A program made the position numbers and the translations under genes. Below are positions 16,472 to 43,190 of a stretch of 60,723 nt of DNA, piece by piece. Source of the DNA: an uncultured Flavobacteriales bacterium (lineage in GTDB: Bacteria > Bacteroidota > Bacteroidia > Flavobacteriales_D > Sanyastnellaceae); the NCBI GenBank assembly GCA_938085105.1, contig CALKGK010000048.1:1-60723 (forward strand), in the 5' to 3' direction. Within the stretch, counting starts at the first letter, position 1; every line of letters begins with the position of its first letter. The notes beneath the pieces were generated by a model. The model saw only the letters and a program-made list of their open reading frames with translations, had not been told where the DNA came from and searched no databases.

Positions 16472-18730
16472 TTAGCGAAGCACCGTAACGTGCCCTACAC
16501 GATCGATAATTCTCGCACCTAGGGGTAAGAGGAGTTCTACTTTTAAATGCCAAGTATAGACCTCATCTTCCGCAAAATGGGTTCCTCTCCTTACACTTCC
16601 GTCCCAAAGTACGCCGGGCTCTTCTGCTGAAAAAACTAGGGTCCCCCAGCGATCGTAAATGCGAAAATCATAATTGAAGTAGTCACAAGAAATTTCATGG
16701 ATGAAGAAGTCATTCACCCCGTCTTGATTTGGAGTGAAAGCCGTCGGAATGTAGATCGGGCAATCGCAGATCACTTCGATCACTTCTAGCTCATCACTTG
16801 CTTCACCGCACTGATTTTCAACAGTCAGCACATACATCCCCGCTTCTTCAAACACGCGAAACTCCCCTTCTTCCCCATCATCCCAAAAAACATCCGTTGC
16901 ATAGAGTGCATCTGCCAAGAATTCCAAAACATCCCCTTCACAGAGGTTCAATCGGTCGGGCAAGTCCAGCAAGGGAAGCTTAACTTGCTCCACCGAAATG
17001 GAGTAATTACTGCTGCAATCGGTGATCACATCGCTCAAGCTGATATTAAAATTGCCTAGCGCTGAGAGATACAAAGAATCCGCATCGGAGCTGAGTGATG
17101 TAGTAATATCATATTGGTTGGGGTAAGCGATGGCTAATTGCTCCCCTTCACAAATGCTGTAAGACTCATTGAAGCTCCATTGGGGTGAAGGGTTCAAAAC
17201 GATTTGTGTTGTATCGAAACCGGAACAATTGGCATCAGAAAGCACTTCGAGCGTGATTTGCCCTGGGTTCGAAAGGCTTATTTGCTCTCCCGTCTCACCT
17301 GTACTCCACATAACGACAGTGCCTTCTTGCGGACTCAAGACCACTTCTTCTCCCTCGCAAAGGGACACCTCCTCAGGTAAATTTGGGTTGGGGTTTTCTT
17401 GAATGAGAGCAGACCCCGTGTAATTTGACACGCAGCCATCGGCACTTGTTAACTCCACCTCTACCTCTTCACTGATGTTGGTTGAGTAAGTACTGTTCGT
17501 TGAGGAATCATGCCACAAATGGTTCACCCCTGCTAGGCTTGCATCAAAAGTAATCTCTTCGCCTTCACAAGCCTCTAAAGTATCTTCCCAATTGATTTCA
17601 GGCAAAGGAAAAGTGCTAGCTTCAATCTCAAAACTTTGAGAACACATTTCCGTGCTTACCATCAAAGTATATGTTCCCGCCTCTGAAAGCTGTACTTCTT
17701 GATTGTTGGTATCGTTGGACCAAGCATATTCCCAGTCGGGTTCTCCAATAGCCTCAACGCTTACCGTCTCGCCTTCACAAAAAGAGACACTCTCTTGAAG
17801 ATCGGGAGAAAAGGGGATCACTTCTACGCTCAGGTCTTCTTGAATCTGGGCTCCACAGAGATCGGTATATGTGACGGTGTATTGAATGTTTTCCTCAGGC
17901 GTGCACAATGTGGTACTTTGATTTGGAGTGTCAAGGTAAGTTGTGGGCGACCATTGGTAGCTTCCGTTGTCTGTTCCCACCACCCCAAGTTCAATGCTTT
18001 CGCCCGAACAAACACTCACCACCTCCGGCAAGCCAAGGGCATAGTTGCTGATACACACCGATTGAACGTTCACCAAACCACCAGTAGCACCGCTGAATCC
18101 CCAAAAAACTTCGGGATTACCGTTAAAAACATCTTCCACCAAATCGATGTTCAGCTCCAAGCGCAATTCACAGTCGAAAAACACCTTCACGACATCCAAA
18201 ACGGGGTCCCAAGTGAGTTTGAAAAAGTGATCTTGTCCGTCTTCCACATTTCCACCTCCAGCATCAATATTTACTGGTCCGAGTAAATTCCCCGGTGTAA
18301 AATGGTTGACGTTTCCATTCACCAAAAGCGCCATATGATCTTGAAAGGGATCGCCGAGATCTTGATTTTGGTAGGTATCCATCTCCACTCCAAAAGAAGG
18401 TTGGAATCCGCCAAAGCCCATTCCTCCGCCTGCTTCTCCCAAAGCATTGATGCCAACTTGTTGCATTATGAAAACCATTCCATCGGCACCATTCGCATCT
18501 GAGCTTCCAAAATTCACGAGGAGTTCCATTTCAAAAGAATCGCTCAAATCAAGCTGTTGATTGAACCAAACAGCCCCCAACTGGAATTCGCTTGCACTGG
18601 TTAAAACGAAACAATCTTCTGAGGAAAGGTATGCGTTGCCCACCGGATTGGATGATTGTCCTTGAGCCATCAGCCCAGAACAAATCATAGCTGAAAGAAT
18701 CAGCAAATACTTAACAAAAGTGTTCAACAT
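16472..18730 (-). CDS. T9SS-secreted protein with L-type lectin domain and gliding-motility-type C-terminal domain
   Basis: The 752-residue product has a signal peptide (MLNTFVKYLLILSAMICSG...AQG). A legume-lectin/ConA-like domain follows at about residues 25-235 (FELELLVNFGSS-type strand, DGMVFIMQQ, SFGVEMDTYQN and HFFKLTWDP motifs), expected to bind a carbohydrate. Next come about five short Ig-like modules, each starting with a cysteine pattern such as VSLCEGEEV or VSFCEGETV. The C-terminal 85 residues (IYIPTAFTPNQDGVNDFF ... FRIYDRWGTLVF ... GHVTVLR) are a type B T9SS sorting domain. The protein is predicted to sit at the cell surface and may bind algal or other polysaccharides. A near-leaderless promoter lies just upstream. 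Confidence 0.92.
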   Translation of the reverse strand: MLNTFVKYLLILSAMICSGLMAQGQSSNPVGNAYLSSEDCFVLTSASEFQLGAVWFNQQLDLSDSFEMELLVNFGSSDANGADGMVFIMQQVGINALGEAGGGMGFGGFQPSFGVEMDTYQNQDLGDPFQDHMALLVNGNVNHFTPGNLLGPVNIDAGGGNVEDGQDHFFKLTWDPVLDVVKVFFDCELRLELNIDLVEDVFNGNPEVFWGFSGATGGLVNVQSVCISNYALGLPEVVSVCSGESIELGVVGTDNGSYQWSPTTYLDTPNQSTTLCTPEENIQYTVTYTDLCGAQIQEDLSVEVIPFSPDLQESVSFCEGETVSVEAIGEPDWEYAWSNDTNNQEVQLSEAGTYTLMVSTEMCSQSFEIEASTFPLPEINWEDTLEACEGEEITFDASLAGVNHLWHDSSTNSTYSTNISEEVEVELTSADGCVSNYTGSALIQENPNPNLPEEVSLCEGEEVVLSPQEGTVVMWSTGETGEQISLSNPGQITLEVLSDANCSGFDTTQIVLNPSPQWSFNESYSICEGEQLAIAYPNQYDITTSLSSDADSLYLSALGNFNISLSDVITDCSSNYSISVEQVKLPLLDLPDRLNLCEGDVLEFLADALYATDVFWDDGEEGEFRVFEEAGMYVLTVENQCGEASDELEVIEVICDCPIYIPTAFTPNQDGVNDFFIHEISCDYFNYDFRIYDRWGTLVFSAEEPGVLWDGSVRRGTHFAEDEVYTWHLKVELLLPLGARIIDRVGHVTVLR

Positions 18731-18736
18731 ACACTA

Positions 18737-18744
18737 CAAAGGTA
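18737..18744 (-). promoter_or_regulatory. -7 element TACCTTTG for the lectin-domain gene
   Basis: It is a perfect minus-strand TAnnTTTG box ending 6 nt before the ATG at 18730. No clear -33 is seen. Confidence 0.5.
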
Positions 18745-18832
18745 AGATAATGATCAGCATAAGTTCACAATCTTCTCACTTCCACTTGCGATTATTGAAA
18801 GGACAAACCGCAATTTCACTCAAGAAGACCTC

Positions 18833-19972
18833 ATGTTCCTTCCCTCCCTAGAATCAAAAAGCCCGAACACTTATACTGAGAAAGTCAGAAAAAAAGTGTA
18901 TTCTCAGCGCATGATCATATCAAAGAAAAAGCCGATCTATTATATCAACGATCGATTGAAGCATTACTTGGAACGGTATGACCGCGAAGTAAAACTTCCT
19001 CTTTCCTACGAGGACCTTACTCGCTGGTCCCAAGGAATGACGCTATATGACGCTGATGGAAAAGACACCTTGTGGGAGTCAGTGATCTACCCCAACAGCG
19101 ATATGGAGCAACTCCAGTTGGGCTTAACCAAGATCTACGCCTTGCTTAAAACCGATGGTGATACGGACGTCATCCAACACCTCAAAGTCGATCGAATTGA
19201 TTACTGCCACTTTGGAAACTCAAAGCCGTTTCGCATCAAAATTAAAAACCAATTTAACGACAACCACGATTATTTCTACATTAAAAAATCCGATGCTTCT
19301 CGTGTTTACGGCTTGGAGTTGGAGTACATTCTTAGTCCGAACAGAATCAGCTTCATCGTAGACGGTACTACTTTGATTGAAGAGCACATTGCAGGCATTC
19401 CCGGCGATATCTACCTCGATCGATACATGTATAGTGAGCAAGTGAACAAAGCTGGTTTAGCGAAGGAGTTCGTGAAATTCAATGAGCGTTGTTTTGTATT
19501 GCTCTTGGGCGATATGCGTTCCTACAACTACGTAATCGACGTTACCCCTGATTTCGACCGGGAGCAATACCGAGTAAGGCCCATCGATTTTGATCAACAA
19601 TGTTACGAGGGACGAAGACAGATGTATCTGCCTCAGTTCTTCAAAGAGAATTTGCCAGTAGTCGAATTTTGTACGGAAATCCTCACTCCAGTTACTGTGA
19701 ATCAGTACCAATATGAGGAACGTGTCCTCATCAAAAAGCGCTATCTCCTGGCCCAGAAACGCCTGAACTTACTTCTGGACTGCATGTCAAAAGACCAGAT
19801 TTCAAAACCAGACAAAATCAAACGACTCAAATCCGAGCTCAATGCCTACCACCAAACTCGTCGCTTCAACCGCTGTGTTTCTATGGGGGGTGTGCTTCGT
19901 TTGCACTTGCTGCTCATGCTTGGAAAGCCAAAGCCGAAGAAGTGGAGAGGGAAGACGACGTTTAAGACTTAG
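18833..19972 (+). CDS. Conserved-looking protein with a divergent kinase-like signature
   Basis: I do not recognise a named family. The pattern of residues follows a protein/aminoglycoside kinase fold: FYIKKSDA (K151/K152, where the ATP lysine would be), GLELE (162-164, helix C glutamate), EEHIAGIPGD (183-192, hinge-like), LLLGDMRSYNYVID (D227 and N232 spaced as in HxDxxxxN) and RPIDFD (D252-F253-D254, as in DFG). The usual HRD/HGD histidine is replaced by leucine. A positively charged tail ends at the stop next to a REP array. The start is uncertain: ATG 18833 or ATG 18911 (MIISKKKPIYYIND); the segment between them is polar and basic. No promoter motif was found. Confidence 0.7.
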   Translation: MFLPSLESKSPNTYTEKVRKKVYSQRMIISKKKPIYYINDRLKHYLERYDREVKLPLSYEDLTRWSQGMTLYDADGKDTLWESVIYPNSDMEQLQLGLTKIYALLKTDGDTDVIQHLKVDRIDYCHFGNSKPFRIKIKNQFNDNHDYFYIKKSDASRVYGLELEYILSPNRISFIVDGTTLIEEHIAGIPGDIYLDRYMYSEQVNKAGLAKEFVKFNERCFVLLLGDMRSYNYVIDVTPDFDREQYRVRPIDFDQQCYEGRRQMYLPQFFKENLPVVEFCTEILTPVTVNQYQYEERVLIKKRYLLAQKRLNLLLDCMSKDQISKPDKIKRLKSELNAYHQTRRFNRCVSMGGVLRLHLLLMLGKPKPKKWRGKTTFKT

Positions 19973-19980
19973 GTTTTTTT

Positions 19981-20180
19981 GGGGCGCTGTGGGGCGGGCG
20001 CTGCGCTTTCGGACGGGTGCGGCTCGTCCTTTTCGGGGCGGGCGCGGCGCTGCCGGACGTGGGCGGCACTGCCAGACGGGCGCGGCACTTTCGGACGGGC
20101 GCGGCACGTCCTTTTACGGGGCGGGCGCTGCGCTGTGGGATGGGCGCGGCACGTCCTTTTCGGGGGCGGCGGGTGCGGGA
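19981..20180. repeat. REP array: GC-rich palindromic repeats downstream of the RAYT gene
   Basis: The 200 bp are strikingly GC-rich compared with both flanks. They contain three related imperfect palindromes of 19 nt: 20011-20029 ggacgggtgcggctcgtcc, 20093-20111 ggacgggcgcggcacgtcc and 20138-20156 ggatgggcgcggcacgtcc. Each is followed by CTTTT, and GGGCGGGCGC-like spacers lie between them. The GGACG and CGTCC ends pair to make short hairpins, as expected for REP/BIME elements recognised by RAYT proteins. Open frames across this stretch have arginine/glycine/alanine-rich low-complexity translations and are not genes. Confidence 0.8.
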
Positions 20181-20190
20181 AGGTGCTCTG

Positions 20191-20682
20191 CTACCTTCGT
20201 TGTTGGAGCTTTTGGATGAGCTTTTGTGGGTTGTTGCGGATGTAGTTGCGGACGTTTTCGAACTCGCGTTGGTCCATGATGATGTTGTCTTGGTAGCGAG
20301 ATACCCACTTGAAGTTGGGCTGGATTTTTCTAGCGCGAGAGGTGATGGCCGACTTGATGCCCCGAACACAAGCGCCTAAACTGCCACTCTGAACTCCAAA
20401 CTGGTTCTGACCAACACTGGGGTCATACTTCTCCCCTTGAACCCGGAGCAGTAAATGCAGGTGGTCAGGCATCACAACGTACTCAATGACTTCAATATTG
20501 GGGTTGATTCGGGAGGTTTCTTCGATGCAGTGTTTGGCGATTTCCCCCACTTCGGTGAGGTGCAACTCTTCGTTCTGAACGAAAGCTAAAAACGGCCTTC
20601 TCTTGGCGGTGACGATGGTGACGTGGTAGTCTCCTTTCGCTGTGTAGTTCCAAGCATAATGACGTAAACTTCTCTTTGGCAT
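20191..20682 (-). CDS. REP-associated tyrosine transposase (RAYT, Y1/IS200-like)
   Basis: RAYTs are single-copy, domesticated relatives of IS200/IS605 Y1 transposases that act on REP palindromes. The 163-residue product has the family start (MPKRSLRHYAWNYTAKGDYHVT), the HUH metal-binding motif MPDHLHLLL (H74 and H76) and the catalytic tyrosine in NYIRNNP (Y147), preceded by SRYQDNIIMD. All key residues are present, so it should be active as a DNA nickase and ligase. Its stop is 11 nt from the REP array at 19981-20180, and similar repeats occur at 42957-43090. No IS ends, accessory gene or target duplication are seen, which fits RAYT rather than a mobile IS. Confidence 0.92.
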   Translation of the reverse strand: MPKRSLRHYAWNYTAKGDYHVTIVTAKRRPFLAFVQNEELHLTEVGEIAKHCIEETSRINPNIEVIEYVVMPDHLHLLLRVQGEKYDPSVGQNQFGVQSGSLGACVRGIKSAITSRARKIQPNFKWVSRYQDNIIMDQREFENVRNYIRNNPQKLIQKLQQRR

Positions 20683-20878
20683 GTGCTTTTTTGACCGAAT
20701 CTATTGGATTCCGGCTTATGAAAGAGATCAACTTTTTGTGTGTTGACGGATGTTTTGTATCTGACTTACCTCTGGGCCTCAAAATTTAACCTTTCCCCAC
20801 ATTGAGCCAGAAAAATACAAGGAGGCTTTTGTATCTTAACCTCAGCAATAATGCTACACAATTCTTAACTCCACAACC

Positions 20879-21805
20879 ATGACTCTACCCGTTATTCTCT
20901 TTTTTGTAGTGATCCTACTTGTCCTTTCCTTCTTCTCTGTGAAGCAGCAAACGGCGGTAATTATCGAGCGATTCGGGAAATTCCAATCGATTCGAAAAGC
21001 CGGTCTTCAAATGAAAATTCCTTTTATCGACAAAAAAGCTGGTCGCTTGAGTTTGCGTATTGAAGAATTGGATGTCATGGTGGAAACCAAGACTAAGGAT
21101 AACGTGTTTGTTGAAATCCGAGTTTCTGTGCAGTACCAAGTTATCCGCGAATCAGTTTACGATGCCTTCTACCGTCTTTCACACCCACGCGATCAAATTA
21201 GGTCCTACGTTTTTGATACGATCAGGGCTGAGGTGCCTAAATTGCGTCTGGATGATGTTTTCGAAAATAAAGATGAAATCGCCGATGCAACCACACGAGA
21301 GTTGAGTCAGGCAATGATGGATTACGGTTATGAAATCATTCGTGCTTTGGTGACCGACATCAACCCAGATGAAGAAGTGAAAAAAGCGATGAACCGTATT
21401 AACGCTTCAGAAAGAATCAAAAAGGCAGCTGAATACGAAGCTGAAGCTGAAAAGATTAAAATTGTAGCGAAAGCAGAGGCCGAAGCTCAGAGTAAAAAAC
21501 TTCAAGGTGTTGGTATTGCTGATCAACGTAGAGAAATTGCTCGTGGTTTAGAAGAGTCGGTTGAAATGCTTAACAAGGTTGGGATTGGAAGCATCGAAGC
21601 TTCTTCACTGATCATCGTTACCCAGCACTACGATACTTTGCAAGCGGTAGGAGAAAACTCCAATTCAAACTTGATTTTGATGCCGAACAGTCCGAGCTCT
21701 GCCAACTCATTGCTTTCAGACATGATTACCTCTTTTGAAACCTCTAGAAGGTTGGGGGAAGCTGAAAAAATGAACGGCGCTCCTCAGAAAGGTTTAGAAC
21801 AATAA
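20879..21805 (+). CDS. SPFH/Band 7 stomatin-like protein (paraslipin/QmcA type)
   Basis: The 308-residue protein starts with one membrane helix (MTLPVILFFVVILLVLSFFS). It is followed by the canonical Band 7 domain: VIIERFGKFQSIRKAGLQMKIPFIDK, ELDVMVETKTKDNVFVEI and LDDVFENKDEI. A coiled coil rich in alanine and glutamate (KKAAEYEAEAEKIKIVAKAEAEAQS) leads to a short C-terminal tail. Such proteins make large cage-like rings at the inner membrane and often work with FtsH or NfeD. No NfeD gene is adjacent here. A weak hairpin terminator follows at about 21837-21876. Confidence 0.95.
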   Translation: MTLPVILFFVVILLVLSFFSVKQQTAVIIERFGKFQSIRKAGLQMKIPFIDKKAGRLSLRIEELDVMVETKTKDNVFVEIRVSVQYQVIRESVYDAFYRLSHPRDQIRSYVFDTIRAEVPKLRLDDVFENKDEIADATTRELSQAMMDYGYEIIRALVTDINPDEEVKKAMNRINASERIKKAAEYEAEAEKIKIVAKAEAEAQSKKLQGVGIADQRREIARGLEESVEMLNKVGIGSIEASSLIIVTQHYDTLQAVGENSNSNLILMPNSPSSANSLLSDMITSFETSRRLGEAEKMNGAPQKGLEQ

Positions 21806-21836
21806 GTACTGTATGTTCGACCAAAAGATGGTGATG

Positions 21837-21876
21837 AGAGGTCAAACTTCCGTGAGGGGGCTTGGCCTCTTTCTTT
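21837..21876 (+). terminator. Putative rho-independent terminator after the stomatin-like gene
   Basis: AGAGG-t-CAA (21837-21845) pairs with TTG-g-CCTCT (21862-21870), with a 16-nt loop, followed by TTCTTT. The stem has one mismatch. Confidence 0.45.
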
Positions 21877-21925
21877 ACCCTATTATTCATCCTATCTTTT
21901 TTGCTGAAAAATGTGGAAAAGCAAT

Positions 21926-21957
21926 TTTGTCAATCAAGCAGCTTCGGTGTACTTTTG
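21926..21957 (+). promoter_or_regulatory. Promoter for transaldolase (TTTG, 20 nt, TACTTTTG)
   Basis: A -33 TTTG (21926-21929) and a perfect -7 TACTTTTG (21950-21957) are 20 nt apart. The promoter ends 19 nt before ATG 21977. Because it lies inside the frame that would begin at 21911, it argues for the later start. Confidence 0.75.
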
Positions 21958-21976
21958 CCAAAAATCAGAACCAACT

Positions 21977-22639
21977 ATGAAATTTTTCATCGACACCGCC
22001 AACCTCGACCAAATCCGTGAAGCACAGGACCTTGGGATTCTTGATGGGGTAACCACCAATCCATCTCTCATGGCCAAAGAAGGCATCACAGGAGAGCAAA
22101 ATGTTATCAACCACTACAAGGCCATTTGCGAAATTGTTGATGGAGATGTAAGTGCTGAAGTAATTTCAACTGACTACGAAGGAATGGTTCGTGAAGGTTT
22201 GAAATTGGCTGAATTGCATGATAACATTGTGGTAAAAATCCCAATGATCAAAGACGGTGTAAAAGCCTTAAAATACTTTTCAGACAAAGGAATTAAAACC
22301 AATTGTACCCTCGTTTTTTCTGCCGGACAAGCACTCCTTGCCGCGAAAGCTGGTGCGACCTATGTCTCTCCATTTATCGGACGTTTGGACGACATTTCGA
22401 GCAACGGTGTTCAGTTGATTGAGCAAATTCGTTTGATCTACGATAACTACGCTTTTGAAACCGAAATCCTTGCAGCATCCGTTCGCCACACCATGCACAT
22501 TATGGATTGTGCTGAAATCGGTGCAGATGTGATGACCGGTCCTTTGAGCGCAATCGTTGGTTTGTTGAAACACCCATTGACCGATAGCGGTTTGGCTCAG
22601 TTTCTTGCAGACCATGCTAAGTCGAACGAAGGAAAATAA
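21977..22639 (+). CDS. Transaldolase, short Fsa/TalC type
   Basis: The enzyme transfers a dihydroxyacetone unit between sugar phosphates in the non-oxidative pentose phosphate pathway, or acts as a fructose-6-phosphate aldolase. The 220-residue protein begins [16 protein letters not shown] and has the DGVTTNPSL segment. The Schiff-base lysine is K87 in NIVVKIPM, and [11 protein letters not shown] follows. The start is ATG 21977; a frame from 21911 runs through the promoter and adds a non-conserved leader. A strong terminator follows. Biochemistry cannot separate Tal from Fsa from sequence alone, and the family is usually annotated as probable transaldolase. Confidence 0.95.
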
Positions 22640-22661
22640 GTCGATACATATAATTGAAAGG

Positions 22662-22693
22662 AACGCTGCTCTTCATTGAGTGGCGTTTTTTTT
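22662..22693 (+). terminator. Rho-independent terminator after transaldolase
   Basis: AACGC (22662-22666) pairs with GCGTT (22683-22687), and an inner CTC/GAG pair extends the stem past one mismatched pair. Eight T residues follow. Confidence 0.8.
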
Positions 22694-22918
22694 GAGGCTG
22701 TCTTTTGAGGGAAAATTGGGGCAAAAAGAAAGTCGGTTGACTAGACCGACTTATAATATCTTTTATTGACTGATTGTTTAGTAACCTACAAGTTACACCC
22801 TCCTTTACGCATACTCTTCATTTTTGGTTTCACCTTTTTCGATTTTTCTCATATCTTTTTCTGAATCTCTTCCAATGGATCGACAAACGGGAAGCACTCG
22901 TCAGGATATCATCGGCTT

Positions 22919-22953
22919 TTTGCTGAAAATGAAGAGAATACCTCGTACCTTTG
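22919..22953 (+). promoter_or_regulatory. Promoter for the TsaC/YciO gene (TTTG, 23 nt, TACCTTTG)
   Basis: A -33 TTTG (22919-22922) and a perfect -7 TACCTTTG (22946-22953) are 23 nt apart. The -7 box ends 4 nt before the GTG start. Confidence 0.6.
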
Positions 22954-22957
22954 TAAG

Positions 22958-23578
22958 GTGTTAGTCGATATACATCAGGAAAACCCAGATCAGCGCAAGA
23001 TCCGCCAAGTAGTGGATGTTTTGCGAAAAGGAGGAGTCATCATCTACCCTACCGACTCTGTTTATAGCATTGGTTGTGCAATAAGTCAGAACAAAGCCAT
23101 TGAGCGAGTTGCCCAAATTAAGGGGATCAAGGCTGAAAAGGCCAATTTCTCTTTGGTATGCGAAGACTTGAGTCAGCTTTCAAAATACGCAAAGCAAGTA
23201 GATACCAACATCTACAAACTCATGAAGCGCGCACTTCCTGGTCCGTACACCTTCATCCTGAACGCGAGTAATTTTGTTCCAAAAATCTTCAAAACGAAGA
23301 AAAAAACCATTGGTATTCGTGTACCCGATCACCTCATTCCAAATCACATTGTAGCCGAGTTAGGGGAACCTATCATTGCGACATCCGTTCATGCTGACGA
23401 TGAAATCTTGGAATACATCACCGACCCGGAGCTCATTCATGAAAAGTATGAAAAGGTGGTTGATTTAGTGATCAATAGCGGAACGGGAAACATCCACGCC
23501 TCAACCATTTTTGATTGTACCACTGGAGAAGCAGAATTGATCCGGGAAGGAATTGGTCCGGTAAAAGGTTTGATTTAA
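22958..23578 (+). CDS. Sua5/YciO/YrdC family protein (threonylcarbamoyl-AMP synthase-like)
   Basis: Members of this family make threonylcarbamoyl-AMP for the t6A modification of tRNAs that read ANN codons. The 206-residue protein has the YrdC fold with GGVIIYPTDSVYSIGC, IKGIKAEKANFSLVCED, LPGPYTFIL, TIGIRVPDH and ATSVH segments. It is of the short YciO type and lacks the Sua5 C-terminal domain. The pattern resembles the YciO branch, so TsaC activity is likely but not certain. The start is GTG 22958, directly after a perfect promoter. The next gene is convergent. Confidence 0.9.
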   Translation: MLVDIHQENPDQRKIRQVVDVLRKGGVIIYPTDSVYSIGCAISQNKAIERVAQIKGIKAEKANFSLVCEDLSQLSKYAKQVDTNIYKLMKRALPGPYTFILNASNFVPKIFKTKKKTIGIRVPDHLIPNHIVAELGEPIIATSVHADDEILEYITDPELIHEKYEKVVDLVINSGTGNIHASTIFDCTTGEAELIREGIGPVKGLI

Positions 23579-42956: not shown

Positions 42957-43090
42957 GGACGGGCTCAGCCCGTCCTTTTCGTTGGCCCTCTCACCGAAAA
43001 AGGATCCAACGGGCGCGCCACACTCGTCCCCCACCCCCGAAAAGGACGAGCCGCGCCCGTCCGAAAGTGTCGCACCCGCCCGAAAGCACC
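42957..43090. repeat. Second REP-like island, same repeat family as 19981-20180
   Basis: A perfect palindrome ggacgggctcagcccgtcc lies at 42957-42975 and is followed by CTTTTCG. A second unit at 43044-43062 (ggacgagccgcgcccgtcc) is, when reversed, one mismatch from the unit at 20093-20111. The match extends into the flanks (CACTTTCG before and CCTTTT after). Related GC-rich pieces lie between and after. This places the same repeats about 23 kb from the RAYT gene. Confidence 0.78.
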
Positions 43091-43190
43091 CCACCCATCC
43101 ACTCCTCCTTTTCGCAAAGCGAAAACCAAAAACTGACAAAAATCAGTTCTCCAAGTAACGCCAGTTACACAAAACCAGCCACTTGCGCCC

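Follow-up and report, generated by a model that had tools for sequence, protein, structure and literature searches.

A single-copy RAYT and a dispersed GAAAA-tagged palindromic repeat in an uncultured Flavobacteriales bacterium

Within the stretch of DNA analysed here (60.7 kb, hereafter the window), a gene encoding a RAYT is followed by a GC-rich array of short imperfect palindromes, raising the question of whether the array, together with any copies elsewhere in the genome, constitutes the REP family of this RAYT. The evidence set out below makes it very probable that this RAYT is present in a single copy and has been kept by vertical descent, and that the array and the dispersed copies are its REP family.

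The RAYT gene and the adjacent array

The RAYT, a TnpAREP-like HUH/Y1 transposase of 163 aa, is encoded at positions 20191–20682 (−). It matches Y1_Tnp (PF01797) at 31.8 bits, above the Pfam cut-off of 23, and is the sole Y1_Tnp match in the source genome (G000, a 3.17-Mb draft of 99 contigs). The best NCBIfam model is NF047646 (REP_Tyr_transpos), matched at 54.8 bits, under its cut-off of 80, marking the protein as divergent. In an alignment of 19 RAYTs including this one, H74 and H76 are invariant and Y147 is present in 18, among them the RAYT of the window, which together with the Pfam match bears out the claim of an earlier note that an intact RAYT (H74/H76/Y147) lies here. The Y motif, YIRNNP, has the form Y---NP by which class-2 TnpAY1 proteins are defined in PMC6006769, with Tyr147 and Asn151 both intact; the other motifs are DHLH and WV. 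An AlphaFold model of the protein (mean pLDDT 87.7) matched 4er8, the E. coli TnpAREP-REP complex, at Foldseek rank 2 (E 2.2e-7, TMq 0.61), and the 30 matches at E<=0.001 also included the IS608 and ISDra2 transposases. As a single-copy gene with the motif Y---NP instead of Y---Q, it falls outside the IS200/IS605 insertion sequences. The RAYT gene lies between a convergent gene (18833–19972, (+)), whose 379-aa product matched nothing in Pfam or NCBIfam at E<=0.001, and a divergent gene for a Band_7/SPFH protein (20879–21805, (+)). A nearby gene (16472–18730) encodes a Bacteroidota-type T9SS sorting domain, which supports the phylum proposed in the earlier note.

The 218-nt gap between the RAYT stop codon and the 379-aa convergent gene is occupied by a REP-like array (about 19983–20180, (−)) that begins 11 nt downstream of the RAYT. 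As the earlier note had described, the array is GC-rich: the GC content is 0.74 in the 200-nt segment 20000–20199, compared with 0.36–0.51 in array-free segments of 18000–23000. It contains three tagged units, all on the RAYT strand (−): TAAAA followed by GGACGTGCCGCGCCCGTCC at 20093–20116 (19-nt unit 20093–20111), GAAAA followed by GGACGAGCCGCACCCGTCC at 20011–20034 (19-nt unit 20011–20029), and GAAAA followed by GGACGTGCCGCGCCCATCC at 20138–20161 (19-nt unit 20138–20156). The earlier count of at least three imperfect palindromes holds for the tagged 19-nt units and fails for the fold, the full bulged hairpin being formed by 20093–20111 alone. The upper stem of 20011–20029 is broken, leaving only the 5-bp lower stem, and 20138–20156, with a broken 3′ arm (one arm reads CATCC), folds no better than shuffles. 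Three degenerate tagless tail units with a 19-nt period (20036–20092, (−)) lie 3′ of 20093–20111, and another degenerate tail unit (19992–20010, (−)) lies 3′ of 20011–20029. An Rfam scan of 19000–21000 returned 0 matches at E<=1.

On the RAYT strand the unit reads (C)GAAAAGGACGTGCCGCGCCCGTCC, and its best array copy, as single-stranded DNA, is predicted to fold as (((((.((...)).))))), that is, 5 bp, a mismatch, 2 bp and a 3-nt loop; a stem mismatch is reported in PMC8266576 to be required in the E. coli REP as well. The loop core is conserved. Twelve of 15 distinct unit forms, and 17 of 20 units, carry the tag GAAAA, which sharpens the earlier description of the repeat as unusual. GAAAA thus prevails where the GTAG REP superfamily has a 5′ GT(A/G)G tag, and the unit likewise departs from the CGTC REP superfamily, with CGTC inside the stem and a stem of 5+2 bp. 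One of the seven base pairs is altered on both sides (C-G to T-A) among the 15 distinct forms, lending the hairpin weak support, since the covariation score was equalled by 15 of 500 shuffles and the pair count by 191 of 500.

Dispersal of the unit in the source genome

The 19-nt unit matched 13 times in the window (<=3 mismatches, both strands) against 0.18 expected, a number reached by 0 of 100 shuffles. A looser pattern, GACGNGCNGCNCCCG with 2 mismatches, was uninformative (79 matches vs 81 in the control), and counting was therefore limited to the longer tagged pattern. This gave 27 rows at <=3 mismatches in the source genome and 0 with the reversed pattern as control. After five 3-mismatch rows, C93:12234 (+) (a counted unit read on its opposite strand) and C5:23370 (a doubtful terminator) had been dropped, about 20 tagged units at 13 places were counted, with C12 and C48:42957 retained though doubtful. 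The genome-wide search for which the earlier note had called thus refutes the notion that the unit has no other copies.

The tagged units sit at gene 3′ ends. Seven of the 13 places are convergent, four tandem, none divergent and two at contig ends, as raw counts from a longest-ORF heuristic rather than a gene finder; by the same heuristic, the earlier question of an intergenic convergent location is answered affirmatively for 7 of the 11 judgeable places. In published surveys REPs lie mainly in convergent and unidirectional intergenic gaps (PMC3733652), and more than 100 copies are called usual for REPs (PMC2817692). The RAYT of the window is accompanied by cognate dispersed palindromic repeats, with fewer copies (20) than that. 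This low copy number counts against the preferred assignment, as does the position of the units beside the RAYT, which is flanked on its 3′ side only: no unit at <=3 mismatches occurs between 20157 and 42956.

A second cluster in the window (42957–43093), unnamed in the earlier note, comprises the tagged near-perfect palindrome GGACGGGCTGAGCCCGTCC (42957–42979, (−)) and a dispersed copy, GAAAA followed by GGACGAGCCGCGCCCGTCC, with a degenerate tail (43039–43093, (+)). Such tails recur at other places: 26 degenerate core copies lie after or between tagged units and 7 before them, against about 2.5 and 2.6 expected from shuffled flanks, the former expectation covering only sequence past the last tagged unit. 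The degenerate copies are tagless by eye and their spacing varies between places; we read them as local expansion after insertion. Decayed copies do not retain the 3′ arm as a rule: at C47 and C42 it is the 5′ arm that is better kept. Two contig ends (C93 right, locus L005; C98 left, locus L009) share a GTCGGACTCGGTGCGAGGCACAGCAC-like tandem repeat (about 26 nt) beside a tagged unit, and the two contigs may be neighbours.

The locus-specific spacers and periods of the tails point to local expansion without transposition, and no insertion event was observed; the repeats could accordingly have been spread by replication slippage, recombination or another element, with the RAYT as a passenger. 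We consider this improbable, because slippage leaves unexplained the dispersal to 13 separate places with different flanks, the clustering of three tagged units beside the sole RAYT, and the parallel RAYT-palindrome pairs in sister genera described below.

The syntenic RAYT of the sister species

The only congener, the sister species G014, carries a RAYT ORF between the same two neighbours, and the stretches common to both RAYTs (NYTAKG, QNQFG..S.SLGACVRG.K and NFKW), together with synteny, identify it as the ortholog. The proteins of the convergent and divergent neighbours are 93% and 95% identical between the species and the RAYTs 42%; dN is 0.51 for the RAYT versus 0.06 and 0.04 for the neighbours, with synonymous sites saturated or nearly so. 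The Y motif is NIHHQP where the window has YIRNNP, so that the catalytic Tyr is replaced by Asn, and this is the sole one of the 19 aligned RAYTs without the Tyr. The Asn of YIRNNP, which has a metal-binding role in E. coli according to PMC6006769, is Gln in the sister protein; since IS200 transposases use Gln there (PMC6006769), metal binding may persist. The HUH motif is kept and the frame is open over 169 codons, with a Y1_Tnp score of 17.1, below the Pfam cut-off of 23. The sister locus is without an array, with 8 nt to the convergent gene, and its genome, as complete as that of G000, lacks the unit at <=3 mismatches and yields no further RAYT match at E<=1e-5. This ortholog with Asn for Tyr, in a genome with neither array nor units, is the most useful new fact of the analysis.

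Orthologous gammaproteobacterial RAYTs are reported to evolve faster than their neighbours, and RAYT presence to go with REP abundance (PMC2817692). The pair of species described here extends both fast RAYT evolution and RAYT-REP co-occurrence to Bacteroidota and adds a Tyr-less case, in which, as a single loss event, cause and coincidence cannot be separated.

For comparison of the individual places, nine joined gene pieces were queried, of which eight, all but the C31 piece, were found in the sister species, and a further query was made for the second cluster. At all seven places where both flanks aligned and the gaps were compared, the unit is absent from the sister. Five of its gaps are shorter than those of the source genome (27 vs 132, 113 vs 247, 100 vs 252, 125 vs 167 and, at the 43039–43093 copy, 82 vs 267 nt), and two are longer (586 vs 172 and 424 vs 164 nt) and carry other repeats; divergence between the two genomes is too great for the exact ends of an insertion to be read. 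The absence of the unit from the sister implies that it spread after the species split or has since been lost there. Replacement of the unit in the sister by a family of its own, TGACCCCANCGGGGTC, was ruled out, this palindrome being present in both species (5+4 matches in the source, 4+6 in the sister, several of them neighbouring); as 29 other genomes have 1–4 matches each, part of these may be due to chance. The sister gap matching C35:113972 (L197, contig C26) is filled by a different intergenic repeat (TATATACTTAGGTCTCAAAA ... TTTGAGACTTAACTATATAGGTG). Both species also have dispersed copies of another short palindrome, TGACCCCAGCGGGGTC, with 9 matches in the source (C2:4361, C30:1506, C84:3709 and C53:23348-23686) and 10 in the sister (C123:15410-15620 and others) at <=1 mismatch.

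The gaps also bear on whether the units are ordinary intrinsic terminators, with AAAA as the U-tract of the opposite strand and their adjacency to the RAYT due to chance. On the strand opposite the RAYT the units do read as a hairpin followed by TTTT, they lie at gene 3′ ends, the side of the T-run fits the upstream gene at three of the four tandem places, and at the fourth the companion palindrome 42957–42979 fits it. Three of the palindromes (C12, C5 and 42957–42979) are nearly perfect and might be plain terminators. At C47:70465 and C48:43035, however, separate U-tract terminators with longer T-runs are present in both species, and in the source genome the unit (at the latter place, the 43039–43093 copy) stands downstream of it, from which we take the unit at these two places to be extra DNA and not the terminator. 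U-tracts vary, whereas exactly GAAAA and then GG is found in 17 of the 20 units; the conserved loop core and the lack of any copy in the equally complete sister genome likewise speak against terminators, for which arrays would be unexpected. A dedicated terminator scan found 2 against 2.0 in shuffles, and counts in the scan for promoters and terminators as a whole were at chance level. Taken together, these data make it very unlikely that the family consists of terminators.

A different possibility is that the RAYT now serves as a regulator or nucleoid protein that binds the dispersed hairpins, its transposition being over. This reading overlaps with the assignment of the repeats to the RAYT, the subject of which is the spread of the units. 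In its favour, the gene is single copy and syntenic, and the frame is kept open in the sister despite the loss of Tyr; the intact Tyr147 and Asn151 in the RAYT of the window and the absence of the unit from the sister argue against it, and we regard it as doubtful, if possible.

With the repeats taken as the REP family of the RAYT, a pathway can be proposed. The unit would fold when the DNA is single-stranded, as in replication, into the 5-bp stem, mismatch, 2-bp stem and 3-nt loop described above, and we infer that the RAYT would bind this hairpin together with its 5′ tag GAAAA. Tyr147 would then cut a nearby phosphodiester, and the cut end would lead to copying or transfer of the unit elsewhere, mostly to gene 3′ ends. 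After insertion, units would expand in place into short direct arrays, the additional copies being tagless and decaying. Once a RAYT loses catalysis, as may have happened in the sister species, the repeat family would no longer be supplied.

Related pairs in the family, recognition code and known systems

RAYT-like proteins were found in 20 of 114 family genomes at E<=1e-5. Among these 114 genomes the tagged unit is private to G000 at <=2 mismatches: elsewhere the pattern gave 19 rows in 13 of 113 genomes, all with exactly 3 mismatches, against 17 for the reversed control. A repeated exact palindrome (stem >=7) lies within about 1.5 kb of 11 of 24 RAYT loci and of none of the other 13, which counts against the preferred assignment, albeit by an exact-stem test that is too strict for the 5+2 bp unit of the window; L108, for example, has imperfect repeats by eye. 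All 114 genomes were scanned for three palindromes taken from the flanks of RAYTs. GGACGGATNNNATCCGTCC is confined to G046 (17 sites) and G048 (31 sites), in which GTAG or GAGAG precedes many of the hairpins. GGACGCRCNGCNGYGCGTCC (<=1 mismatch) is confined to seven genomes of the group g11 (3, 39, 35, 30, 8, 27 and 21 copies), six of which have a RAYT match (8–39 copies), while G031, with 3 copies, has none. GGGCGAATNATTATTCGCCC (<=1 mismatch) has 10 occurrences in G018 and 1–3 in each of 11 further genomes, of which 9 have no RAYT match. Since RAYT flanks were the source of these palindromes, finding them in genomes with a RAYT is in part a consequence of that choice; the informative part is their rarity elsewhere, and the G018 case is the weakest.

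Several further features of these genomes were observed. G047 has five GGACGCGCGAAGCGCGTCC-type palindromes with a spacing of about 230 bp (C2:1305795-1306736). The arrays beside L090, L088 and L093 (in G047, G048 and G018) seem by eye to mix full palindromes with one-arm half-palindromes. In the long RAYTs L098, L104 and L110 (in G022 and G028), HUH and Tyr are separated by repetitive in-frame inserts (NDAPNPTKI repeats, for example) that resemble those published for subclass 2.4.

In the E. coli protein, W94, Q95, E100, H101 and R104 are tied to the GTAG guide (PMC6006769); they align with W126, V127, D132, N133 and M136 of the RAYT of the window, so that W94 is kept and the other four are V, D, N and M. 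The change of E100 to D says little about the tag, because D replaces E100 also in subclasses described as using GT(A/G)G tags (PMC6006769). The other changes in the contact region fit an altered tag, although a code of this kind is put forward as a proposal and not as a result. Q occupies position 95 in 11 of the 19 aligned RAYTs, ten of which have WQ. No simple rule leads from residue to tag in the relatives: position 104 is Asn in L091, which we took to be GTAG-tagged, and Arg in the GAGAG-tagged L088. We tentatively suggest that the RAYT and its repeat have jointly changed their recognition code, with a GAAAA tag and another cleavage dinucleotide, and leave, in place of inverted pairs, one-sided head-and-tail arrays in which tagless copies follow a tagged hairpin, and that the sister species may be the end state, a RAYT of open frame without Tyr or repeats that is possibly a pure DNA-binding protein. 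This suggestion is weakened by the D at position 100 in GTAG-using subclasses and by the retention of Q95 in only 11 of 19 relatives.

The system resembles E. coli TnpAREP/REP (PDB 4er8; group 2) in its fold, with a single HUH domain and Tyr, in the stem mismatch and 5′ tag, and in having one gene with many dispersed targets. It differs in the tag (GTAG there, GAAAA here), in the four guide-contact residues and in its array, which is one-sided and direct rather than inverted. An inverted REP pair at the RAYT is said in PMC2817692 to be obligate in gammaproteobacteria, whereas the RAYT of the window has units on the 3′ side, on one strand. Among the subclasses described in PMC6006769, subclass 2.6 (Bertels group 5), found in Bacteroidetes, has non-GTAG flanking structures with copies elsewhere and a non-conserved guide-contact region, as here; its motifs NH[LIV]H, WQ and YIH[QN]NP differ from DHLH, WV and YIRNNP, a comparison made by motifs and description. 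Subclass 2.4 (Bertels group 4), from Cyanobacteria and Bacteroidetes, has the motif YIxNNP, which fits the RAYT of the window, and in-frame inserts between HUH and Y that also occur in several longer RAYT relatives of this family; its NH[IFV]H and WQ are DHLH and WV here, and its GT[AG]G tag and double foot are absent here (PMC6006769). The CGTC-tagged REPs of PMC3733652 are short hairpins found in Bacteroidetes among other phyla, and CGTCC is contained in our unit. They are described there as having an unpaired CGTC end and 8–9 bp stems, apparently without a dedicated transposase, whereas in the unit of the window CGTC lies within the 5+2 bp stem.

A first survey placed RAYT-REP systems, by its criteria, in gammaproteobacteria only (PMC2817692), and a later one includes RAYTs of Bacteroidetes whose flanking structures are atypical and have copies elsewhere (PMC6006769). 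A search of the main texts of the open-licence literature found no paper devoted to this architecture in Bacteroidota. The protein of the window is thus a true RAYT with its own repeat family, of a kind already known, Bacteroidetes included, and it differs from the known RAYT-REPs in its GAAAA tag, altered GTAG-contact residues, one-sided direct array and low copy number.

Two questions are open, namely what keeps RAYTs and REPs matched and whether a REP family depends on a RAYT that is catalytically active, and the experimental work cited in PMC8266576 concerns gammaproteobacterial systems. This Bacteroidota family offers several RAYT-repeat pairs with the tags GAAAA, GTAG and GAGAG on a shared protein scaffold, together with a sister pair in which Tyr is lost and the repeat absent. 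Such material brings the tag code, and likewise the dependence on catalysis, within reach of tests that require no more than short oligonucleotides and a small number of purified proteins.
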